The position numbers were made by a program, and so were the translations under genes. Of a stretch of DNA of 20,618 nucleotides, positions 588 through 20,618 are shown piece by piece. The first letter of the stretch is position 1. Each line of letters starts with the position of its first letter. The notes under the pieces are model-generated. The model saw only the letters and a program-made list of their open reading frames with translations. It searched no databases and was not told the origin of the DNA. Source of the stretch: a virus; the IMG/VR virus record IMGVR_UViG_3300044675_008121, positions 1 through 20,618 of that record. The stretch is one strand, 5' to 3'.

Positions 588-1463
588 TCAAGGACGCATC
601 AAGGGGTAAAGCGCATCGAGAGCCATACAATAAACAGGATGCGTGCCAGCCCTAGCGGCCCTTTGATGGTGCAGCAGCAGCCCATTGGCAAACTGGAGCC
701 ATCCCTGATCCAAGTCTGCCCGGTTCCACTGGTGCTCGGCAACGCCATCGACAGAGAGCATGAAATTGATGCCCCGCTGCACGCGGAGCCCTCCCCTGAC
801 CGCCTCTACGCCCATGGCGTAGCTCCCCTGCTGCATTTGCCAGCCCGAGCGAACTCGGGCGGTTTTTTCTCGCGTTCTGCCGGCCGCCGCATCGACCCTG
901 GCCAAGTGATCGCAAATTCCCCTCAGTATTTCATCTTCAGGAGCGTAATCAACCAGGCGCTGATAGCGCTCTGCAAAGCTCTCCATCTGGTTCGACTTCC
1001 AATCGCAACCTGTAAGCACTCCGTCCACTTCGGCGATCAGGTCTGGAGTGAATCCATACACGCCACCAACGTGAATCATTGGCTGCTCAATAATATAAAT
1101 TTTGCCAATTCTCGGATAAACATGTTTCAGCCATGAACTAAAAATCTTTTCGCTTTCGCTTGATCTGGTCGGCTCCACCCCGTAAATAAGATAGGTTTGA
1201 ATGTGCCCGTGAACCTCCGTGCCGATCGCGGCTCGTATGTCCCTAACGCGCTCCATAAAATAGTGAGCCCCGGACTCGCTGAGCCCCTTGCGCATTAGGG
1301 ATCCCTGCCAGGGATCTTTGTCAAAATCTTTGCCGCCGCCCAAATCAATAATGTGCGAGGAAGACGGAACCTCTACCTCTGTCTGGCCTCTCCAAAAATA
1401 CCTGTGATCCTGTTCGCTGAAAAAAACGCCCCCTTGCGGGGGCAAAAGGCACAATTCGGGCAT
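588..1463 (-). CDS. PD-(D/E)XK exonuclease, Cas4/RecB-nuclease type
   Basis: 291 residues. The N-terminus (HRYFWRG near 20-26, then a PSSS stretch at 33-36) resembles the start of phage exonucleases of this fold. Residues 81-85 give the GTxxH motif, E126 sits in IIEQPM, then PD at 140-141 and DWK at 154-156 form the PD...DxK metal site, and Q211/Q212 with Y215 fit the QxxxY motif. The family degrades DNA ends to leave single strands for an annealing protein. Its ATG shares one base with the stop of the SSB-like gene upstream, and the ERF annealase lies beyond that, so the three genes form a Red/ERF-like recombination operon. Codons 7-14 coincide with a sense-strand intrinsic terminator (1420-1443), which may limit its expression. 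A plus-strand terminator-like hairpin lies at 843-868. Substrate and polarity cannot be read from sequence. Confidence 0.8.
   Translation of the reverse strand: MPELCLLPPQGGVFFSEQDHRYFWRGQTEVEVPSSSHIIDLGGGKDFDKDPWQGSLMRKGLSESGAHYFMERVRDIRAAIGTEVHGHIQTYLIYGVEPTRSSESEKIFSSWLKHVYPRIGKIYIIEQPMIHVGGVYGFTPDLIAEVDGVLTGCDWKSNQMESFAERYQRLVDYAPEDEILRGICDHLARVDAAAGRTREKTARVRSGWQMQQGSYAMGVEAVRGGLRVQRGINFMLSVDGVAEHQWNRADLDQGWLQFANGLLLHHQRAARAGTHPVYCMALDALYPLMRP
843..868 (+). terminator. Plus-strand intrinsic terminator-like hairpin antisense to the exonuclease gene
   Basis: GCCCGAG (843-849), loop CGAA, CTCGGGC (854-860), two G and six T (863-868) form a textbook terminator on the plus strand. No plus-strand gene is credible here, so if active it would stop antisense transcription within the leftward operon. 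Confidence 0.5.
1420..1443 (-). terminator. Intrinsic terminator inside the 5' end of the exonuclease gene
   Basis: Read on the minus strand, GCCCCC, a GCAA tetraloop and GGGGGC form a six-pair GC-only stem, followed after one base by seven T (1426 down to 1420). It lies about 20 bases after the exonuclease ATG, in the sense direction of the ERF/SSB-like/exonuclease operon. The form is canonical; the attenuating role is inference. Confidence 0.65.
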
Positions 1464-2242
1464 CAGAAATCCCCAGGAAGTTGCGGATGCTGACCGTGAA
1501 TGGCTCCAGGGATCGGGGCAGGAGGAACAACCGGCGGAGGCATCAGGTCGGGCGTTGGGGGAGTGTGATGCTGGCCCAAGTGGACCGGCAAAGGCTGAGC
1601 CTGGGCGTATCCCTGGGGAGCCTGGGCGTATCCCTGGGGAGCCTGGGCGTATCCCTGGGGAGCCTGGGCGTATCCCTGGGGAGCCTGGGCGTATCCCTGG
1701 GGAAACTGCTGATGCTGGACTGGCTGATGCTGGACTGGCTGATGCTGGACTGGCTGATGCTGGACTGGCTGATGCTGGACTGGCTCAACGTACCCCTGGG
1801 GAGGCTGCTGAGCGTACTGTTGAGGCGGCTGAGCGTACTGTTGAGGCGGCTGAGGCGGCAAAGGCTGAGCCTGCTGAGCGTACTGCTGAGGCGGAGCCTG
1901 CTGAGCCTGCTGCTGAGCGTACTGCTGCCTGGCAGCCGCACTCTGGATACTATCCTCGACGGAGCTGAGATAGCCGCTCAAAATTGGTTTTTGCTTGCCG
2001 CCCTGAGATGTGCCCCCCTGCTGTGCATAAAGGGCAAAATCCAGCTTGACACAGGGTTGCCCCCCTGAATCTTGCTGGTATTGGCCAGCATTGAAAGCAG
2101 CCAACATTTCCTGAAGTAAGCCGTAAGAAATTTCAACATTGCCCTTGTAATCGGGCTGGTTCGGATTCTTCTTGTTGTTGACCCACAAAGCAGACCTGTT
2201 AGGCCGGTAAGTGCGTTGCGATTGCTGCGGAAATTGTGTCAC
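1463..2242 (-). CDS. SSB-like protein with long P/Q-rich repeat tail
   Basis: 259 residues, with a GTG start inside the GTGA that also ends the ERF gene, implying translational coupling. Residues 13-95 are a compact domain: RSALWVNNKK, PDYKG, then alternating hydrophobic strands (VKLDFALYAQ, ILSGYLSSVED). This resembles small phage single-strand-binding proteins, but I cannot show an OB fold by eye. Residues 100-259 are disordered and made of P/Q-rich repeats: PQQYAQ-type units, five VQHQP units (155-178) and five PQGYAQA-type units (181-216). The protein ends LPGDF, a weak echo of the acidic, Phe-terminated tip of bacterial SSB. Its place between an annealase and an exonuclease supports a role in handling single strands during recombination. 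The repeats are near-perfect at DNA level and likely to vary in copy number. The main alternative is an accessory scaffold of unknown function. Confidence 0.5.
   Translation of the reverse strand: MTQFPQQSQRTYRPNRSALWVNNKKNPNQPDYKGNVEISYGLLQEMLAAFNAGQYQQDSGGQPCVKLDFALYAQQGGTSQGGKQKPILSGYLSSVEDSIQSAAARQQYAQQQAQQAPPQQYAQQAQPLPPQPPQQYAQPPQQYAQQPPQGYVEPVQHQPVQHQPVQHQPVQHQPVQHQQFPQGYAQAPQGYAQAPQGYAQAPQGYAQAPQGYAQAQPLPVHLGQHHTPPTPDLMPPPVVPPAPIPGAIHGQHPQLPGDF
1598..1702 (-). repeat. Five tandem 21-bp repeats coding for PQGYAQA-type units
   Basis: Five adjacent 21-bp copies start at 1598, 1619, 1640, 1661 and 1682 and read as near-identical. They are in frame with the SSB-like gene, so each change in copy number adds or removes seven residues. 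Near-perfect DNA identity suggests recent expansion by slippage or recombination. Confidence 0.9.
1709..1783 (-). repeat. Five tandem 15-bp repeats coding for VQHQP
   Basis: Five identical 15-bp units start at 1709, 1724, 1739, 1754 and 1769, again in frame with the SSB-like gene (five residues each). Together with the neighbouring 21-bp array and a third, looser 21-bp repeat (about 1806-1850), this gene carries three independent arrays. Confidence 0.9.
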
Positions 2243-2952
2243 GAGAGGACGGGGAGAGGGTTTACGGCGTAGGCGATAACGCCAGGCTGGGGCGCCTGAG
2301 CGAACTGCTGGGAATGAGGCTGAGCAAACTGCTGCGGATGGAGTGGCTGAGCAAACTGCTGGGGATGAGGCACGGGTGACTGACCTTGAGGCTGAGGCGC
2401 CCCAAGGCCGGGCAGGGAATGACCAGAAGCAAAAGCAGAAGAATTGCCGACGTTCCCGTCGTCATCTTCTGAGTCTGGGCAAATGTTAAGTAGCGCAAAC
2501 AAATTGTAGCGCGTCCCTAGCGTGAAAAAACCAGCGACCTTTTGCATTGTAAGCACTTCGCCCGCGATGTCGCCCACAATGGGAAAGTCGCTACTCAGCT
2601 CTTCTTCGCCGTCAAGCGTAGACAGCGTGGTCCTGACGAACCACCGGCCGTCGGCGAAACAACCTTGGGTAAAAACCTTTACTCCGTACTCCAAAAGCGG
2701 CTCCCTGATCGCCTCCAGTAGCGAAGACAGTTTAAGGTAACGGCTCTTGGTGTACGTGTTCTCAGCGTCTTTCGTAAGGTTCTGGAATTGCGGAGTAGCC
2801 GCAGCAATTCGCTCCAAAAGAGAAAGGTTGCCAAGGCCGGTCGAAGAGTGCAGGGCTGGCGCTACGGGCTGAGCAACCATCGGAGGCAGCTGCCCGGTCG
2901 GCAAAGATGCCATGGGAGCAGGCGGGTGTTGGTCTGAAGCGGAGCGCGTCAT
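2239..2952 (-). CDS. ERF-family single-strand DNA annealing protein
   Basis: 237 residues from ATG 2952. The frame is open further upstream, but a -10 element ends 21 bases before this ATG, matching the spacing at other genes, so I chose it. Residues 55-157 hold the ERF-type core: FQNLTKDAENTYTKSRYLKLSSLLEAIREPL, the short GEEELSSDFPI strand, and the QKVAGFFTLGTRYNLFALLNI segment that corresponds to the family's Q-x-x-G-x-x-x-T-Y-x-x-R-Y-x-L signature. Such proteins anneal complementary single strands in phage recombination. The C-terminal 65 residues are P/Q-rich with three QQFAQ units, echoing the QQYAQ units of the SSB-like protein encoded next. The stop overlaps that gene's GTG. An ERF annealase, SSB-like protein and exonuclease together make a complete recombination module. 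Confidence 0.8.
   Translation of the reverse strand: MTRSASDQHPPAPMASLPTGQLPPMVAQPVAPALHSSTGLGNLSLLERIAAATPQFQNLTKDAENTYTKSRYLKLSSLLEAIREPLLEYGVKVFTQGCFADGRWFVRTTLSTLDGEEELSSDFPIVGDIAGEVLTMQKVAGFFTLGTRYNLFALLNICPDSEDDDGNVGNSSAFASGHSLPGLGAPQPQGQSPVPHPQQFAQPLHPQQFAQPHSQQFAQAPQPGVIAYAVNPLPVLS
2296..2367 (-). repeat. Three imperfect 21-bp repeats coding for QQFAQ units
   Basis: Copies at 2296-2316, 2320-2340 and 2347-2367 differ at few bases and are separated by 3 and 6 bases. They are in frame within the tail of the ERF gene and code for HPQQFAQ-like units. Confidence 0.75.
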
Positions 2953-2973
2953 AGGAAGCGGGCGAACAAGAGA

Positions 2974-2982
2974 AGCGTAGCA
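2974..2982 (-). promoter_or_regulatory. Promoter -10 for the ERF/SSB-like/exonuclease operon
   Basis: Minus-strand TGC-TACGCT, with its last base 21 bases before the ERF ATG at 2952. It supports that start over earlier in-frame codons. Upstream lies a semi-palindromic AAGC-GTTGCA-AGCTT stretch (about 3005-3019) similar to one before the clamp gene (11926-11938), possibly an operator. Confidence 0.5.
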
Positions 2983-3015
2983 CAGGGAGGACGGTTTTAA
3001 GGGCAAGCGTTGCAA

Positions 3016-3036
3016 GCTTGGCGCTTTTGCCCAAGC
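3016..3036 (-). terminator. Hairpin just after the primase-helicase stop
   Basis: GCTTGG (3016-3021) and CCAAGC (3031-3036) form a six-pair stem with a 9-base loop, starting 3 bases after the primase-helicase stop codon. There is no T tract on the minus strand, so it is either a weak terminator or an mRNA 3' end structure. Confidence 0.3.
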
Positions 3037-3038
3037 CC

Positions 3039-5471
3039 TTAATCCGGGAAACGCCCTAGCGCGACAAAAACTGCTGCTCGGCCTTCTCGGCGCCACTCCC
3101 CCAGCCCCATGTCAACTAGCTGTTCCATCGCGGTTTTGACGTGAGTAGGTAAAATTTCCTTTCTGTACCTTGCCGGCACGCATTGAGAGACGAAAACTGA
3201 TGCGCTGCAACCGTTGACGCCTTTGGCGTAAGTGTGGATTCTCCGGTTCAAATCAAAAGATCCGTGCCTAGTCATCTGCGATTCTTGCTGCTCCAGGACT
3301 GCATAGCTCTGGAGCAAGTCAACTAATACAGTTGCCCTGGCAAGGGTTTGGCGAGACAGGAACAGCTCGTCTCCGCTCTCCTCTCCAGCCGCAACGCGGC
3401 ATAGGTGCATGGTCAGGGCAACCTGAAGCACATATCCAAGCCGTTTGCCAAAGACAGCTCGCTGAGACTCTAGAGATACCGCCTGGCTCTTGTCGTAAGT
3501 GTCGCGTGACAAAATAGTGAACAACTCGACAGCCTCTCTTTCAAGCCGCAGCACAAGAGGCCTCAGGCCAAGGCAGCGCAGATAAAAGCTTTCCAGGCAC
3601 TGCCCCGCCATGTGGACAGCAGTAACCTCGTCCGGCGAACGAAAGAAATTAGGCTCGATATATTTGTTTATCAATGGCACTACAAGGCACCTGGCAAACA
3701 AGCCGGCGTCGTCACCATATTCCACCATCGTACGAAATACGCCCGGCTGAACACCTCCCAGGAGGGAGTTTTGAACTTTCCCGCTGTTCCCCCTCAGCCG
3801 CCGGCCAATGCGCAGCGACGAAGGCACATTGCCGTCGAAAAGACACAAAAATGTTTCTTTGCCGCTGCCTTTGCCGTGAGATTTGTACTCATCAAAGTTT
3901 CCAAGAACTCTTTTAATCTCCTCAGAATAGATAAAAGTTGGCAGGCCCTTGGCATGATTGCCAATAAGAATCTCAATCAAAGATTCAGTTGTAAAGTTTT
4001 CAACGCAAGTCTCTAGGGGCTTAGGCTCTTCAGGCCTCGCTCCTTTCGCCACTCCAAGATAACGCATGTCATATTCAGCTTTTTCGCTTTTACTAAGAAA
4101 ATCATAGTGGCTTAGCACAAGACTGAGGCGATCCTTGCATAACTGCCGCATAATGGGGCTCTTCCCGCTCCCGGACGGGCCAGCTAAAAGCAACCAGATC
4201 ACAGGCTGTTTCACAAACATTCCATCCCCAGCATCGAGCCGGTGGCCAGCTTGAAACACGCCAGCAGCAGTAGTCAGGACCACGGAGGCGGCAATCAGTG
4301 GGTCGCACGCCAGGTTCCCGGTCAGCTCTGCTACAGCACCACATATCGACTCCGGCAAATAGTCAGAAAGATTTACGCTTTCTCTTTTAGCCTCAAGCTC
4401 TTGTCGCTGGAATATGGCCGATGTCGCGGACAATGCCTCAGACGTGGCCTGGCGATCCTCTGACAGCGAATCCCATATACGCTTGGTGTCGAATACGGAG
4501 GCATTGTTGGCGGACGCAATATCCGCGATTGCGGCTTGAATGTTTGCAGCCCCGGTGGGTTCCGTTTCGTAAAAATCCTGCAAATCTTGCTTTATCTTGC
4601 CATAGCTGATCCGATTGAGCGGCGCCGGCTTCACGCCGGACGCTGATTTAATAGCTGCTGTTATTAAAAAAGAGAGATTTTCTGCCGGCATGTCGTCAAC
4701 GCTCCCGCCATCTGGAACGTCATAAATAGACTCAGCCGGAATAACGCAAAATTCAATCTTGGCAAGCTGAGCTGCGGCAGAAAAGGCAACAGCTTTTCTC
4801 CTGCCGGCAACATCGTTGTCAGATATAAAGCAAACTTTTTTAATTCCCGCAGCTGCAAGGCCGGCATATCGTGCTCTGCATGAAGCTTCATCCCGCTGGT
4901 GGCCGGGATGCGTTATCGCAGCAATGCCATTGGCTCGTAAAATGTCAACGCATTTTTCGCCCTCAACCTCTATGATAAAATTGCTTGAATTTGCCCCAAT
5001 GGATCCGTAGAATGGCCATATTTCGGGGCCAGCGCTGGACCTCCAGGTACCGCCGGAAAAGAATCCTGCTGAAAAATCTTTTTTCCCGCCCTCAACATAA
5101 TCATATCTAGTCACCCTCAAATCTTGCCGGTAGTAATACGTGGTAGCAACAGCTTCTCTCTGGCCTTTAACAGCAAATGCTGGCGCAGGTAGGCGCAACG
5201 GGCCGCACGATGGCAGGTGGTCGTCAACCTTCTCCTCGTGAACCACAAACACCGCTCCCCGCCCGTCTTCGGAGTCTCCAGTGTAGGCCCATGTTCTGCC
5301 CGCAACGTCCATCAACTCCCCGGCCCTCAGGTCGTCAGGCGGCCCCAAGCTCTTGCCTCGATGGCATAGAACCATTTGCTCGTCATCCCTGATCCTGCAG
5401 TCCCCATCGCTAGTTCTGCCGCAAATTGGGCACGGGTTACGGCGAGAGGAAGGCTGCCACTTGTGCTGCAT
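3039..5471 (-). CDS. Primase-helicase: zinc finger, Toprim and DUF3987-type ATPase
   Basis: 810 residues. C14, C17, C25 and C36 near the N-terminus form a CHC2-like zinc-binding motif. A Toprim domain follows, with the EGEK glutamate near residue 169 and DND in ISDNDVAGR near 218, the metal-binding acidic residues of primases. A linker region (about 290-375) leads to a DUF3987-type ATPase with Walker A GPSGSGKSP at about 429-437 and YSEEIKRVLG (about 515) as a likely Walker B region. The C-terminal 100 residues have a winged-helix look. The combination predicts a protein that lays RNA primers and drives fork unwinding, as T7 gp4-like proteins do, though DUF3987 helicase activity is inference. 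The gene starts behind a leader of roughly 130 bases holding three hairpins, from the minus-directed half of the divergent promoter at 5605-5635. Confidence 0.8.
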   Translation of the reverse strand: MQHKWQPSSRRNPCPICGRTSDGDCRIRDDEQMVLCHRGKSLGPPDDLRAGELMDVAGRTWAYTGDSEDGRGAVFVVHEEKVDDHLPSCGPLRLPAPAFAVKGQREAVATTYYYRQDLRVTRYDYVEGGKKDFSAGFFSGGTWRSSAGPEIWPFYGSIGANSSNFIIEVEGEKCVDILRANGIAAITHPGHQRDEASCRARYAGLAAAGIKKVCFISDNDVAGRRKAVAFSAAAQLAKIEFCVIPAESIYDVPDGGSVDDMPAENLSFLITAAIKSASGVKPAPLNRISYGKIKQDLQDFYETEPTGAANIQAAIADIASANNASVFDTKRIWDSLSEDRQATSEALSATSAIFQRQELEAKRESVNLSDYLPESICGAVAELTGNLACDPLIAASVVLTTAAGVFQAGHRLDAGDGMFVKQPVIWLLLAGPSGSGKSPIMRQLCKDRLSLVLSHYDFLSKSEKAEYDMRYLGVAKGARPEEPKPLETCVENFTTESLIEILIGNHAKGLPTFIYSEEIKRVLGNFDEYKSHGKGSGKETFLCLFDGNVPSSLRIGRRLRGNSGKVQNSLLGGVQPGVFRTMVEYGDDAGLFARCLVVPLINKYIEPNFFRSPDEVTAVHMAGQCLESFYLRCLGLRPLVLRLEREAVELFTILSRDTYDKSQAVSLESQRAVFGKRLGYVLQVALTMHLCRVAAGEESGDELFLSRQTLARATVLVDLLQSYAVLEQQESQMTRHGSFDLNRRIHTYAKGVNGCSASVFVSQCVPARYRKEILPTHVKTAMEQLVDMGLGEWRREGRAAVFVALGRFPD

Positions 5472-9867: not shown

Positions 9868-10350
9868 ATGGCCTTCCCGTCGCTTCGGTCTTTGCAGCTC
9901 CTTTTTCATTACAATCCAATAAACGGAGAAATCAGCTACCTGGTTGACAGGGGGCCAAAAAAGGCCGGCCAACTGGCCGGCTGCACACAAGGCGGTTTCC
10001 CTTGCATTTACGTGCAAGGGAAATACTACAAAGCCGTAACTATAGCATGGATGCTGGCACACGGGGAACTAAGCCCGCAGCACATTATGTGCATAGACGG
10101 CAACAAAGAAAACTTAAGGCTTTGCAACCTTAAGCCAGCCGACGAACCTGCGCCCTCCCCTCGCCATGCCGGCAGACGTGCTCGGCGGCCGGCATGGCAG
10201 AAGAGGGACATCTTCTACGACCGAACATTTGGTCTGTGGATCACCAAATTCCAGGGGGAAATATGCGGAGAGTTTGCAACGCAGAAGGAGGCAATCGCCG
10301 CTTGGCGTGCTGCTGCAAAAGACGCGGGCGAACAGGAGCAAAATGCCTAA
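9868..10350 (+). CDS. HNH-like protein with AP2-like C-terminal domain, catalytic His residues missing
   Basis: 160 residues. Residues 10-90 follow the phage HNH_3 pattern: LLFHYNPINGEISYLV, AG (33-37), a GGFPCIYVQGKYY strand pair, IAWMLAHGE (59-67) and CIDGNKENLRLCNL (75-88). Residues 112-150 (IFYDRTFGLWITKFQGEICG, then EFATQKEAIAAWR) resemble the three-strand-plus-helix AP2 DNA-binding unit common in homing endonucleases. The usual HRLAW reads VTIAW (57-61) and the usual D-H before I-N-G reads M74-C75, so both canonical His residues are gone. The protein probably still binds DNA but may not cut, perhaps having become a regulator. The gene contains four perfect hairpins (9964-10198), which is exceptional. 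It overlaps the next gene by 8 bases. Confidence 0.6.
   Translation: MAFPSLRSLQLLFHYNPINGEISYLVDRGPKKAGQLAGCTQGGFPCIYVQGKYYKAVTIAWMLAHGELSPQHIMCIDGNKENLRLCNLKPADEPAPSPRHAGRRARRPAWQKRDIFYDRTFGLWITKFQGEICGEFATQKEAIAAWRAAAKDAGEQEQNA
9957..9981 (-). terminator. Minus-strand terminator-like hairpin inside the HNH-like gene
   Basis: GCCGGCC (9964-9970), AACT and GGCCGGC (9975-9981) form a perfect 7-pair hairpin. On the minus strand it runs into six T (complement of A 9957-9962). It faces against the direction of the gene. Confidence 0.45.
9996..10023. repeat. Perfect 11-bp hairpin inside the HNH-like gene
   Basis: TTTCCCTTGCA (9996-10006) and TGCAAGGGAAA (10013-10023) are exact inverted repeats with a 6-base loop. 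Two further perfect hairpins follow in the same gene, at 10113-10134 (7 pairs) and 10163-10198 (11 pairs). Confidence 0.85.
10163..10198. repeat. Perfect 11-bp inverted repeat in the HNH-AP2 linker
   Basis: GCCATGCCGGC (10163-10173) and GCCGGCATGGC (10188-10198) are exact inverted repeats around a 14-base loop. It codes for the Arg-rich linker between the HNH-like and AP2-like parts. Confidence 0.85.
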
Positions 10351-10618
10351 TCTTGTGAAGCCAGGGCTAAGTTCTCGCGACATAAGAACTCGCCGCGTTT
10401 TATTTAGGCGCGTGCGAATTGGGCAGATATTTTCTTCATGGAATCGCTGGTATCAAAAAGTAAGTTTCGGGATGGCGGTTAAAGCCGACACTTCCGATCA
10501 GGGAAAAATCCGCTTTGCGCAGGGCAAGAGCGTTAATGTCATCGCAGAGGGAAGCGTACTGTCGCGACAAGGATTGACATTTGAAGAATTTATGAGACAG
10601 CAAAGCCCTGAAATTTAG
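10343..10618 (+). CDS. Small basic hypothetical protein
   Basis: 91 residues from ATG 10343, chosen because GGAG lies 4 bases upstream; the frame is open earlier, but only in the shadow of the HNH-like gene. Residues 10-45 are Arg-rich with aromatic residues (IRTRRVLFRRVRIGQIFSSW, then NRWYQKVSF), suggesting a nucleic-acid contact surface. The remainder (GKSVNVIAEGSVL, LTFEEFMRQ) looks globular. It overlaps the HNH-like gene by 8 bases and is probably translated with it. No family recognised. Confidence 0.55.
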   Translation: MPNLVKPGLSSRDIRTRRVLFRRVRIGQIFSSWNRWYQKVSFGMAVKADTSDQGKIRFAQGKSVNVIAEGSVLSRQGLTFEEFMRQQSPEI

Positions 10619-10623
10619 GCTAA

Positions 10624-10632
10624 GCTACCAAT
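10624..10632 (+). promoter_or_regulatory. Possible promoter -10 for the gene at 10656
   Basis: GC-TACCAAT (7 bases after GC rather than 6), ending 23 bases before ATG 10656. Imperfect version of the common element. Confidence 0.35.
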
Positions 10633-10655
10633 GTCCACCAACAACAGGATCCCAC

Positions 10656-11099
10656 ATGGCCGCGTTCAATGTCCAACAGCTTTGGAAGGAGTTAAGAGAA
10701 AGAGTCAAGACAAACTGGCAATTCCGTCTTTGTTATGACGATCTTTTGTTGAATTTGCTTACAAGGATTGAAAAGCTAGAATCCTACACCGCCGGGTATC
10801 GCCGCAATCCTGAGATCGTTCGCGATTCCGAACCAACTTACAAGACCAATTCGCTCAAGCCGATTGCGCAAGCGGATATGACAGGCACGTCTTTTCTCCA
10901 AAAAGACGGATCAGTCGTTACCTTATTCGACGAAGAATGTCAGTGCTGGTGCGCTGACGCAAGAAACTTAATACCTTCCTGGGAGTTTCGCCAGCCGCAT
11001 CCTGAAGATACGCATTTCCTCCCGCGCGACAGCATCGCCTGGCCTATGTCTGAAAGCTCGCTGAGCGAGTTTGGCCCGAACGACATGCCGCTGGGCTGA
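10656..11099 (+). CDS. Hypothetical protein
   Basis: 147 residues. The N-terminal 50 residues are helical and amphipathic (VQQLWKELRERVKTNWQFRL, then LLNLLTRIEKLESY). The middle carries strands (GTSFLQKDGSVVTLFDEECQ), and the C-terminal third is Pro/Ser-rich. C-x-C near residue 98 (CQCWC) may bind metal or be structural. It lies directly upstream of the tad2-like gene and may be cotranscribed with it. No family recognised. Confidence 0.55.
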   Translation: MAAFNVQQLWKELRERVKTNWQFRLCYDDLLLNLLTRIEKLESYTAGYRRNPEIVRDSEPTYKTNSLKPIAQADMTGTSFLQKDGSVVTLFDEECQCWCADARNLIPSWEFRQPHPEDTHFLPRDSIAWPMSESSLSEFGPNDMPLG

Positions 11100-11156
11100 C
11101 CACGCGGCCCGCCAGTGCCGCCCCCAATCTGGTCTCCACTTGCATACTTTTCCCCT

Positions 11157-11393
11157 ATGGAACGAAACGACTCTTTCGCAACTGTGATTGCAGATCTTGT
11201 GGTGTCTCGCCTCCCGCACCGATGGTCGCGCAGAGGGTGGAATGGCCGGGGCCAATTTATCGCCCGCTGCGTCCCTGACGAGGCCAGCGAAATAACAGTC
11301 CCGTTTATCTGCATCAACACGGTTAACTTTGATCGCGTCCCTTGGCTTCCGAGCCAAGGAGACCTTTTCGCCGAAGACTGGTACATCTTCTAA
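11157..11393 (+). CDS. tad2: Tad2-like anti-Thoeris protein (DUF2829)
   Basis: 78 residues from ATG 11157; an earlier in-frame start at 11115 would only add a Pro-rich stretch. The two hallmark segments of the Tad2/DUF2829 family are clear: RRGWNGRGQFI (25-35) and VPWLPSQGDLFAEDW (61-75), with a predicted helix before the first. Known Tad2 proteins act in the host cytoplasm by sequestering the cyclic ADP-ribose-type signal made by ThsB TIR proteins, which blocks the Thoeris defence system. This copy is shorter than typical members (about 90-100 residues), mainly between residues 40 and 50, so signal binding needs testing. It lies 57 bases after the 10656 gene. A CATACT element at 11143-11148 would make its mRNA almost leaderless; otherwise it is read from the upstream promoter. 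Confidence 0.8.
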   Translation: MERNDSFATVIADLVVSRLPHRWSRRGWNGRGQFIARCVPDEASEITVPFICINTVNFDRVPWLPSQGDLFAEDWYIF

Positions 11394-11401
11394 TCCACCA
11401 A

Positions 11402-11429
11402 GCCAGCGGGCGGCCTCGCGCTCGCTGGC
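11402..11429 (+). terminator. Hairpin after the tad2-like gene
   Basis: GCCAGCG (11402-11408) and CGCTGGC (11423-11429) form a 7-pair stem 8 bases after the tad2-like stop. The T tract is poor (ATTT), so a weak or partial terminator. The rest of the 11394-11537 gap holds only the promoter of the next gene. Confidence 0.3.
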
Positions 11430-11495
11430 CATTTCGCCATCCTTTCCCCCTGTTCTCATTTGCACGATTGCGCAGAAAGGCAAAGCCTAAACTCT

Positions 11496-11503
11496 GCTAT
11501 GCT
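11496..11503 (+). promoter_or_regulatory. Promoter -10 for the gene at 11538
   Basis: TGC-TATGCT, 34 bases before ATG 11538. Same TGCTATGCTTA core as the promoter at 12781. Confidence 0.5.
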
Positions 11504-11537
11504 TAAAGAGTAAAGCGCTTCTTTCGCAAGCACAGCC

Positions 11538-11765
11538 ATGGTACAAAACGACTTTCCTCTTTTTGGCAGCGAACACTACGAGCTGCTGGCTCAGTTTGAG
11601 AGAGACTGCAAGGACCAGATTGGGCGAACCGACAAAGAGCCAAAGGGCATTTGGCACAAAGGCCACATTTACCAAGATGGCGCGACTAACGCCGTCTTCC
11701 TCGCCTATCGGAAAGGATATGCTTATGGCAAGGCTGTAGACATATCCTCAGCCAGGGGAGAGTGA
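11538..11765 (+). CDS. Conserved small phage protein of unknown function
   Basis: 75 residues. The pattern FPLFGSEHYELLAQFER, then KEPKGIWHKGHIYQDGATN and VFLAYRKGYAYGKAV recalls a small protein I associate with many unrelated phages, so it is probably a conserved phage family, but I know of no function. It is soluble, mixed alpha/beta, and lacks cysteine clusters apart from one Cys. It has its own promoter and is followed after 5 bases by a 39-residue membrane-protein gene, so the two probably share a transcript. Confidence 0.65.
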   Translation: MVQNDFPLFGSEHYELLAQFERDCKDQIGRTDKEPKGIWHKGHIYQDGATNAVFLAYRKGYAYGKAVDISSARGE

Positions 11766-11770
11766 CGGCG

Positions 11771-11890
11771 ATGGCTCGTACCGCCGCCCTGCTGTTGGTG
11801 CTCGCGTTGTTTCTGGTGCCACTGGCGCCAAGAATCGCTGATGTGCACAAAAAAATTGAAAGCTTAGCAGGCGCGAAGGTCGCGCCGTGA
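11771..11890 (+). CDS. 39-residue single-pass membrane protein
   Basis: ATG 11771 to TGA 11890, too short for ordinary gene finders. Residues 2-4 (ART) are basic, and residues 5-19 are a hydrophobic helix (AALLLVLALFLVPLA), followed by a short polar tail (RIADVHKKIESLAGAKVAP). GGGGAG lies upstream (11756-11761) at a spacing of 9. The layout fits a signal-anchor peptide or a tiny single-pass protein, possibly an envelope-active phage peptide. Cleavage after PLAP is conceivable but not predicted with confidence. Confidence 0.5.
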   Translation: MARTAALLLVLALFLVPLAPRIADVHKKIESLAGAKVAP

Positions 11891-11937
11891 CGCATTGCGA
11901 AAAAGTGCTAAGCGCTTAAAAGGGAAGCGTTGCACGC

Positions 11938-11967
11938 TCGCTAGTTAGGTGCTATTCTTGCCTTGTT
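11938..11967 (+). repeat. 30-bp promoter repeat, copy 1
   Basis: This 30-bp block contains TGC-TATTCT and matches 12768-12797 at 28 of 30 bases. TTGCAC (11931-11936) precedes TATTCT by 17 bases, a proper -35 spacing that copy 2 lacks. The -10 ends 39 bases before the clamp-like gene. A short palindrome AGCGT-TGC-ACGCT (11926-11938) overlaps the -35 and may be an operator. Confidence 0.8.
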
Positions 11968-11997
11968 GAAACGACCGGCAGTAGGCCGGATCACCAC

Positions 11998-12774
11998 ATG
12001 GAATCCAGCACCTCCCCTCAACTGGGATGGCACCACAACGCAGAACCCGCCACACGGCTCCCTGCGCAACTGATCCATACCGCTGCGCAATTCGCAAGCA
12101 CCGATCCAGACAGGCGGTATATGACTGGGATTCTTGTCAGGCCGGCAGAATGCGGTGTCGGAATCAGGATAGATTCCAGCGATGGTCACAGAGCTTTTCG
12201 CGTGACCTGCCCTGACGAAAGATGGTTTTGCCCGTTTCCAATCCTGCTTAAAGCATCAGCTTTCAAAAAGCGCATCCCAAACGCAGGAACTTTCGATATT
12301 CTAAATGAAGGATGCGCGAGAATCACGGGCGGGAAGAAGCGCGGAAATGACGAAATCATGTCATTAAATGCAATCGTTAATTGGCTTTGGGAAGGAGAAA
12401 GAGACATCGTTTCTTCTACCACTTGCAATCCTGCAAGCCTTTATCCAAACATAGATTATATTTGGCCGTCAAGCTATGGCAGGGATTGCGAAGAGCCGAT
12501 AACGTTTGACGCTCAGCTTTGCGCTGACTTCTTGAAACAGGTTTGCAACTTTTCGCACAGCAAATGTGTCACTATGCAGCGCAACGGCAAAATCAACCCG
12601 TTAATGCTGACGGCGGAAGCAGATGACGGCTATGGCGCTCAAGTTGAGATGAATTTTCTTTTAATGCCCATAGGAAGGCCAGCGCAACAGGTCGAGCGTG
12701 TCACGCCTGCTGATGCTTGCGCCAATTCCATAAAGATGCCAGCAGAACAACGCGAAGCGAAGTTTATTCGCTAG
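11998..12774 (+). CDS. Sliding-clamp-like protein (DNA polymerase III beta fold)
   Basis: 258 residues. Residues 24-70 (AQLIHTAAQFASTDPDRRYM, then GILVRP and IRIDSSDGHRAFRV) match the first-domain pattern of beta clamps, in which a helix is followed by the GxxL strand and the TDGHR turn. The C-terminal part (FDAQLCADFLKQVCNF 170-185, NPLMLTAEADD 200-210, MNFLLMPIGRP 218-228) matches the last clamp domain with its closing LMPIR-like strand. Bacterial DnaN has about 370 residues and three domains; at 258 this one probably has two. Beta clamps hold the polymerase on DNA, and phages use their own version or a decoy for host partners. The gene lies between two 30-bp direct repeats, and its TAG stop falls inside the second. 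Confidence 0.6.
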   Translation: MESSTSPQLGWHHNAEPATRLPAQLIHTAAQFASTDPDRRYMTGILVRPAECGVGIRIDSSDGHRAFRVTCPDERWFCPFPILLKASAFKKRIPNAGTFDILNEGCARITGGKKRGNDEIMSLNAIVNWLWEGERDIVSSTTCNPASLYPNIDYIWPSSYGRDCEEPITFDAQLCADFLKQVCNFSHSKCVTMQRNGKINPLMLTAEADDGYGAQVEMNFLLMPIGRPAQQVERVTPADACANSIKMPAEQREAKFIR

Positions 12775-18698: not shown

Positions 18699-18860
18699 CT
18701 AGGACCGAGTAAGTGATTTGCGAGAAACCAGCCGTGTTACGCCATTTGGGTCAATAGCGATAACACGCCCCGAAGATGGCAGCACTCCAAAAGCGTAAGG
18801 CAGCCTCCAGCCCGTCTCCCCGTCATGTTTGACGGCGGTGTAAGAAATGGGACGATCCAT
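18699..18860 (-). CDS. 53-residue hypothetical protein
   Basis: ATG 18860 to TAG 18699 on the minus strand, too short for ordinary gene finders. The sequence MDRPISYTAVKHDGETGWRL, then PYAFGVLPSSGRVIAIDPNG and TRLVSRKSLTRS looks like a real small strand-rich protein with balanced composition. It starts 24 bases after the stop of the 170-residue gene and is followed by the terminator at 18631, so the two form an operon. No family recognised. Confidence 0.55.
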   Translation of the reverse strand: MDRPISYTAVKHDGETGWRLPYAFGVLPSSGRVIAIDPNGVTRLVSRKSLTRS

Positions 18861-19517: not shown

Positions 19518-20618
19518 TTAGTAAATTCGGTGAGAAGTGGCGGCTCCGTTTTCGCCTCTAGTAAGATCAAATTTAGCCTTGACTAAGTATTTGAAAGCAT
19601 CAAAAGGATGGTCAACGCCTAGTTTCTTGTTTGGCATTCGAGTGCCATCAGCGTAGCCAAGCGTGCGAAAAGACTTGATGAGTTCGCGACAGCAAGGATG
19701 TATTTTTGTGTGCACTTCGCCATCCGCAGTCCGCAGGGCTGCATTTACGCCGCGAATGCCGTCAGCAGTGTTGTATGGCGCCTCTGGCGCGATCACGGAA
19801 ATTCCCGCTTTGCGCAATATCTGATGATCGCTTACTCCAGTGCCTGATGTTTGCTTCCTTTTGCCGGTGGGATCAGGGCACGCATAAATCCGGCGGGCCA
19901 GACGATTAGGAGTGAGACCGTAAAGATCGACCAATACCTCTGCCAAATCCCATGTTGTGGCATTTCTAAGTAAAATCTCGTTGAAAATCCGCAGCTCTTT
20001 GATTTTGCCATTTTCTTTGATAATGTTAGCGCAAATTGCAGTTAATGGATCATTATTGAAATCAATCCCTACGTAAAGCGGCAAGTTTGGATCGTCTCTA
20101 ACAGACGAATCCAAGTTGTCCATGGAAAAACAAGAGACAACCAAGCCTGTATTTGAAAGAATTTTAGCCTCATATTCACGCTCAAACGCCTCAGGAGAGA
20201 GCGTCCTTCGTGCTCTTTCAATTTCCGCTAACGGGATATTTCCACCCTGCAGTGACGTGTACTCGTAAAGAGTCCATTCTTGTGGATTAAGCTGATCCAT
20301 CTCCGGGTCAGCCAAGTCTCCTCCCTTCAGTTTCAGAATTAGCTCGTAAAACCATCCTGCAGTGCCCTCAGGGCTAGGCGTAGTTATGAGCAGCGCCCAA
20401 CCCAAAAGATCAGAAAGTGCCGGATTGATCACCGAGTTCCATGTGTACTCTTGCTGAAAGGCGCACTCATCCATCACGACTCCGCCCAAAGCCGGACCGC
20501 GCAAAGCGTCTGGGTCTTCAGAGCCTTTGAGATAAATGACAGAGCCGTTAATAAGGTCAATTCTAAGGTTGGATTCGTTTTTTTTCCTTATCCATCTTTC
20601 TGGGATAAGGCTTTTATA
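19518..20618 (-). CDS. Large terminase subunit, C-terminal part
   Basis: The frame is open to the window edge, giving 366 residues without the N-terminus; the true start and Walker A lie outside. Visible parts are the Walker B strand with catalytic Glu (GGVVMDECAF), the region after it (LLGWALLITTPSPEGTAGWF, including the coupling motif TTP), and the RNase-H-like nuclease domain with VGIDFNNDPLTAI (first Asp), DPTGKRKQTSGTG and GVDHPFDAFKYL (last acidic residues). This is the motor and nuclease that cuts and packages phage DNA into proheads. Structural genes are expected beyond the right edge. An AT-rich stretch (19494-19520) follows the stop. Confidence 0.9.
   Translation of the reverse strand, partial: YKSLIPERWIRKKNESNLRIDLINGSVIYLKGSEDPDALRGPALGGVVMDECAFQQEYTWNSVINPALSDLLGWALLITTPSPEGTAGWFYELILKLKGGDLADPEMDQLNPQEWTLYEYTSLQGGNIPLAEIERARRTLSPEAFEREYEAKILSNTGLVVSCFSMDNLDSSVRDDPNLPLYVGIDFNNDPLTAICANIIKENGKIKELRIFNEILLRNATTWDLAEVLVDLYGLTPNRLARRIYACPDPTGKRKQTSGTGVSDHQILRKAGISVIAPEAPYNTADGIRGVNAALRTADGEVHTKIHPCCRELIKSFRTLGYADGTRMPNKKLGVDHPFDAFKYLVKAKFDLTRGENGAATSHRIY

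Follow-up and report, generated by a model that had tools for sequence, protein, structure and literature searches.

Tad2 proteins are homotetramers of V-shaped dimers assembled through helix α2, strand β2, and helix α1 (PMC12043709). Their gcADPR pockets comprise the β1-β2 and β3-β4 loops, strand β4, the β4-α3 loop, and helix α3, and cyclic dinucleotides bind a long insertion between β2 and β5 (PMC12043709). The known ligand of Tad2 from Bacillus phage SPO1 (gp34.65; PDB 8sme, 8smf, 8smg, 8wje) is gcADPR. One family member, ModTad2 from a Myroides odoratus prophage (PDB 9eib, 8v3e), binds His-ADPR (PMC13299392; PDB 9eib title). Short phage Tad2-like proteins also exist, among them those of Mycobacterium phages MalagasyRose (gp4) and Curiosium (gp4), of Acinetobacter phage XC38, and of four IMG/VR loci designated L012 to L015; in the literature covered, with the primary Tad2 papers lying outside it, we found no experimental characterization of these short proteins.

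Here we analyze a Tad2-like gene of an uncultured virus, on a 20,618-base IMG/VR fragment (IMGVR_UViG_3300044675_008121), the whole of which is referred to as the window. The protein it encodes shares the length and the 48-residue Trp-Trp spacing of the short phage proteins listed above and is 62 to 64% identical to those of L012 to L014. SPO1 Tad2 belongs to the same Pfam family, has the fold predicted for the window protein, and is 32% identical to it, with WNG, P65, S66, Q67, D69, and AEDW in common; it differs by 13 more β2-β3 residues and by SQTDVL where the window protein reads SQGDLF, and whereas gcADPR is its known ligand, that of the window protein cannot be read from sequence. ModTad2, the top structural match of our model, reads PSVSDIL in the helix where the window protein reads PSQGDLF, and its β2-β3 segment is longer. 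HgmTad2/AcrIIA7 and SptTad2 (PDB 8kbi-8kbm, 8wjd) agree with the window protein in family and fold but carry about 24 to 30 more β2-β3 residues, in a segment reported to bind cyclic dinucleotides.

Gene, family assignment, and predicted fold

The gene and its two hallmark segments are as follows.

11157-11393, plus strand: Tad2-like (PF11195) gene, 78 amino acids, assigned from Pfam, PDB matches, AlphaFold2, and Foldseek/VIA
11229-11261, plus strand: hallmark segment 1, RRGWNGRGQFI, residues 25-35, covering the end of β1, the β1-β2 loop, and the start of β2
11337-11381, plus strand: hallmark segment 2, VPWLPSQGDLFAEDW, residues 61-75, covering β4, a loop, a helix, and the start of the last strand

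Both segments, on which the original prediction had based its call, are present in this open reading frame, and the claimed membership in the Tad2 family is borne out by sequence, profile, and predicted fold, to the point that we regard it as close to certain. The protein matches PF11195 (Tad2-like, formerly named DUF2829) with an E value of 2.3e-15; its score of 57.3 bits exceeds the cut-off of 25, and the alignment pairs 57 residues with 59 positions (14-72 of the 73 in the profile). A sequence search of the PDB returned strong matches to Tad2/AcrIIA7 entries only, namely SptTad2, Myroides Tad2, HgmTad2/AcrIIA7, and SPO1 Tad2. The protein also matched two PHROGs families with no assigned function. 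Neither PADLOC nor NCBIfam named a family, and the NCBIfam result is uninformative since SPO1 Tad2 was likewise missed.

The start at 11157 agrees with the proteins of L012 to L015, which begin at the same residue with (M/V)EQN(D/E)SF; a 92-residue version starting from the GTG at 11115 is unsupported by the starts of these relatives. An antisense frame of 171 residues (10968-11483, minus strand) overlaps the gene, and we found nothing in its favor. Compared with three relatives, 11157-11393 gave pN/pS values of 0.22/0.66, 0.23/0.72, and 0.22/0.78, with synonymous sites near saturation. Judging from these comparisons, the frame is under purifying selection.

An AlphaFold2 model of the protein (pLDDT 94.3, pTM 0.81) contains helices at residues 7-16 and 67-71 and strands at 23-25, 34-38, 50-54, 60-62, and 75-77. 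Because the input alignment consisted of 75 window- and locus-derived sequences, all of them family members, the evidence from sequence and from fold is not independent. In Foldseek searches with this model, solved Tad2 chains ranked first, with a probability of 1.00 to all Tad2 entries listed and TM scores of about 0.73 to 0.79. VIA-align, for which a Z score of 8 is the tool's own level for a meaningful match, gave Z 11.5 (rmsd 2.0 Å over 72 residues) to ModTad2 bound to His-ADPR, Z 11.3 (rmsd 2.1 Å over 73 residues) to SPO1 Tad2 with 1''-3' gcADPR, and Z 10.8 to SptTad2 with cGG; all Tad2 entries listed fell between 10.8 and 11.5, and the next unrelated entry scored 6.1. Comparison with the Tad2 crystal structures had been proposed as a check, and the window protein is predicted with high confidence to have the Tad2 fold. 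The monomer model contains no helix in residues 38-50, and a counterpart to helix α2 is not apparent; therefore, the known Tad2 assembly may not carry over to this protein.

Phage lineage and accessory segment

The genes used to place the phage and to delimit the segment around the Tad2-like gene are given below.

9868-10350, plus strand: HNH endonuclease gene (PHROG 99, E = 3.3e-18), conserved left flank shared with sister phages
10343-10618, plus strand: conserved small gene, immediate left flank, 31 to 41% identity in 11 sister loci
10619-11997, plus strand: window-specific segment with the Tad2-like gene, 1.38 kb, defined by comparison with sister phages
10656-11099, plus strand: open reading frame of 147 amino acids, upstream in the segment, function not assigned
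11097-11156, plus strand: leader separating the Tad2-like start from the stop codon upstream of it (blastn match 11093-11395, 69%)
11538-11765, plus strand: open reading frame of 75 amino acids, downstream in the segment, function not assigned, with relatives in Pseudomonas phage IME307 and one IMG/VR contig
11998-12774, plus strand: conserved gene, immediate right flank, with weak PHROG matches to a RusA-like resolvase and a polymerase processivity factor
19518-20504, minus strand: terminase large subunit gene, used for phage placement (PHROG and protein matches)

A megablast search of the whole window against phages returned no match, and placement was made through individual proteins. By bit score, the best match of the terminase is Cyanophage S-2L, at 34% identity. 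In a sister contig (L125) whose terminase is 80% identical to that of the window, the best-scoring match of the portal is again S-2L, with phages of Synechococcus and Prochlorococcus ranking next, and S-2L is the best named match of the capsid, behind an unannotated marine single-cell virus. In the contig of the nearest Tad2 relative, L012, the capsid shares 63% identity with its counterpart in Synechococcus phage S-SRP02. The cyanophage background named in the original prediction thus agrees with the lineage's terminase, portal, and capsid, for all of which the best named matches are cyanophages. On these protein comparisons, a cyanophage identity is well supported, and together the matches, at low identities, support a probable cyanobacterial host for the window phage. 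Thoeris genes have been reported in Synechococcus, and genome annotation is the sole basis for Thoeris in cyanobacteria in the literature we found (PMC10696648).

The junction occupied by the Tad2 segment measures 1,380 bp in the window; five sister phages have only 47 to 101 bp there and another has 411 bp, and PF11195 was found in none of 25 sister records, many of which are fragments. The Tad2-like gene is therefore a sporadic accessory gene of the phage lineage, in keeping with the accessory region that had been claimed. The roughly 60-base leader can be aligned with those of L014 and L015 up to the stop codon, and the preceding genes are unrelated (2181-2242 in L014); a comparison of gene order between the window and L012 to L015 found no shared gene beyond Tad2. 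It appears as if the gene and its leader travelled together. Read from the letters, GCGGC-N8-GCCGC in the leader could possibly form a small hairpin.

Several further observations concern the neighboring genes. The 75-residue downstream protein is 61% identical to a Pseudomonas phage IME307 protein and belongs to a small phage family. The 147-residue upstream frame, modeled alone with AlphaFold2, gave an unusable prediction (pLDDT 43). Its last 16 residues, SESSLSEFGPNDMPLG, are found unchanged at the end of an otherwise different 309-residue frame in another IMG/VR contig (L197, 4122-5051); because the codons differ between the two, the peptide itself seems to have been kept. A scan of viral contigs for the pattern EFGPNDMP returned the L197 contig only. 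Downstream of the terminase gene, a frame of 53 residues (18699-18860, minus strand) has tblastn matches in 66 sister loci, which marks it as a short conserved gene. At the other end of the window, a 259-residue frame (1463-2242, minus strand) has a tail rich in Gln and Pro, in which QHQPV-like and QAPQGYA-like motifs repeat in tandem, and adjoins an ERF-family gene (2239-3096, PF04404). Elsewhere, phage CBW1004C-Prop1, presumably a Synechococcus/Cyanobium prophage to judge from its name, has a Tad2-like gene (L011, 1444-1698) near its lysis and terminase genes.

Length, presumed pocket, and unusual substitutions

The original prediction had called the 78-residue copy short and possibly a minimal form, an idea that we discarded because this is the commonest length found. 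The spacing between Trp28 and Trp75 is 48 residues, as it is in 43 of the 74 relatives in our alignment, and the profile alignment described above, which spans most of the domain, likewise speaks against a minimal form. Phage proteins of 71 to 78 residues are common among the relatives, and phages of Mycobacterium, Acinetobacter, and Aeromonas also lack the extra β2-β3 residues. The 48-residue spacing is the commonest form among the relatives retrieved, but its family-wide share is overstated, as retrieval favored proteins that resemble the short form. Among viral contigs, a single-sequence query found no relative, and an alignment query was needed to retrieve them.

The shortness has a more specific bearing on ligands. 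One further feature is needed here.

11271-11303, plus strand: β2-β3 loop, residues 39-49, VPDEASEITVP, where relatives read xPDxHSKMTLP

Solved Tad2 proteins have 13 to about 30 more residues between β2 and β3 than the window protein, whose loop comprises 11 residues; the dinucleotide-binding forms among them have 24 to 30 more. The long insertion after β2 that serves as the dinucleotide site of HgmTad2 and SptTad2 is thus absent. In contrast, all 11 columns that are invariant across the 75 sequences (the window protein and 74 relatives) are kept: R25, W28, N29, G30, P62, W63, S66, Q67, D69, D74, and W75. The WNG and PWxxSQxDxxAxDW residues conserved in the family are likewise all present. 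These invariant residues lie in or beside the β1-β2 loop and the β4-helix region, which according to a review form the gcADPR pocket (PMC12043709); the argument follows the wording of that review rather than a comparison with ligand coordinates. The short form therefore appears to keep the elements of the gcADPR pocket while lacking the insertion. Dinucleotide binding is unlikely, given that the protein lacks the segment in which the dinucleotide site is reported to lie, and binding of an ADPR-type signal is possible.

What sets the window protein apart is its substitutions. Among columns with a conservation of 80% or more, it departs at 11 positions (A10V, G20P, L37R, Q38C, K45E, M46I, L48V, Y50F, A65P, T68G, and L71F); among 44 short-form proteins, the next highest count is 8 and the median is 1. 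Nine of the 11 fall within residues 37-50 and 65-71, that is, in the β2-β3 region and in the loop and helix beside the presumed pocket. Hallmark segment 2 contains three of them, A65P, T68G, and L71F, such that the window protein reads PSQGDLF where the family has ASQTDLL. Short phage relatives keep loops resembling QxPDxHSKMTLPYI together with ASQTDLL, and both are changed in the window protein. The clade joining it with L012 to L014 is supported (100/99), and its end branch measures 0.58 compared with 0.035 to 0.14 in these three sisters. L027 combines P65, G68, and F71, and a pattern scan found the same combination in 26 IMG/VR stretches, long forms included; since the scan asked for a PSQGDLF-type motif, it shows recurrence and not frequency. 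The 26 stretches include the contig on which L027 lies (as L208), and a few of them nearly duplicate one another. None of the solved Tad2 proteins matched here contains SQGD. This set of substitutions is, by comparison with the alignment, unusual and merits a comparison of specificity.

Probable signal sequestration and rival readings

The window protein is an ordinary member of a known anti-defense family in an interesting host group, and by family a sponge role for it is likely. From sequence and model, we favor the reading that it is a Tad2-family signal sponge, an accessory gene product of an S-2L-related cyanophage, that would capture an ADP-ribose signal made by a TIR-domain protein, and we place the probability of this reading at roughly 0.68. 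The protein would assemble into an oligomer. In presumed pockets formed by the WNG loop and by the PWxxSQxD loop and helix, it would hold a nucleotide signal from a TIR-domain protein of the host, which could be an isomer of cyclic ADP-ribose or a related molecule, for example His-ADPR. With the signal sequestered, a Thoeris-type effector would not be switched on. By analogy, 1''-3' gcADPR is only one option as ligand; because family members bind either gcADPR (SPO1 Tad2) or His-ADPR (ModTad2), the ligand of the window protein is not fixed. That sister phages do without the gene counts against the sponge reading.

We considered four other explanations, each of which we judge to be weaker than sequestration of an ADP-ribose-type signal. 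A sponge for CBASS cyclic dinucleotides, alone or together with Thoeris signals, of the sort reported with HgmTad2 and SptTad2, would suit a protein of the same family with an agreeing fold and a close sequence match to SptTad2 with cGG. However, the long β2-β5 insertion that carries the site (PMC12043709) is made up of residues the window protein does not have, and SPO1 Tad2, which has a shorter insert, fails to bind 3'3'-cGAMP (PMC11722364); both points make this reading very unlikely. The name AcrIIA7, borne by some PF11195 proteins, raises the idea of an inhibitor of type II CRISPR-Cas: PDB 8kbi and 9kzr, so named, match the sequence profile, 8kbi also matches the fold, and the copy in Escherichia phage Louie is annotated as an anti-CRISPR protein. 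Yet the same protein has been solved with nucleotide signals (8kbj and 8kbk titles), which favors a sponge role and leaves anti-CRISPR activity an outside chance.

We give just as little credence to a role as a virion or assembly protein. In L012, the gene is flanked by portal-like and scaffold-like reading frames (as read by eye), in Klebsiella NKA196 it comes after the gene for the major capsid protein, and the model bears some resemblance to a neck protein of phage 812 (8qkh_s, Z 6.1), but this score falls below the meaningful level of 8 and far below the 11 reached with Tad2; moreover, the window gene lies outside the structural module and is missing from sister phages, which means that it does not encode an essential structural part. 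Decay or relaxation of the copy, with little function left, would account for the long end branch and for the highest count of conserved-column changes. It is nonetheless an unlikely explanation, as all 11 invariant residues are kept, the frame is intact, the predicted fold is confident, and pN/pS is about a third or less; the recurrence of P65, G68, and F71 together in the 26 IMG/VR stretches points instead to an alternative state. Some weakening of function is possible, because the 11 deviations are the most among the short forms.

Returning to the ADP-ribose signal sponge, we asked what the substitutions could mean for its ligand. Altered specificity, which the original prediction had tied to shortness, is possible through the unusual substitutions instead, and the SQGDLF state together with the changed β2-β3 loop suggests that the ligand need not be 1''-3' gcADPR. 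A bolder and, in our estimate, unlikely proposal is that PSQGDLF marks a separate Tad2 specificity class, whose TIR-made signal would be neither gcADPR nor His-ADPR; the state would have been reached independently within the short-form clade, because the closest sisters read ASQTDLL. If true, such a class would hint at an undescribed TIR signal in cyanobacteria. The window protein and the 26 IMG/VR stretches form a ready panel for the study of ligand specificity, PSQGDLF being absent from the solved structures matched here. More broadly, Tad2 proteins reveal the nucleotide alarm signals that a phage meets in its host, and the presence of one in a lineage of cyanophages suggests that immunity of the TIR type is active in cyanobacteria.
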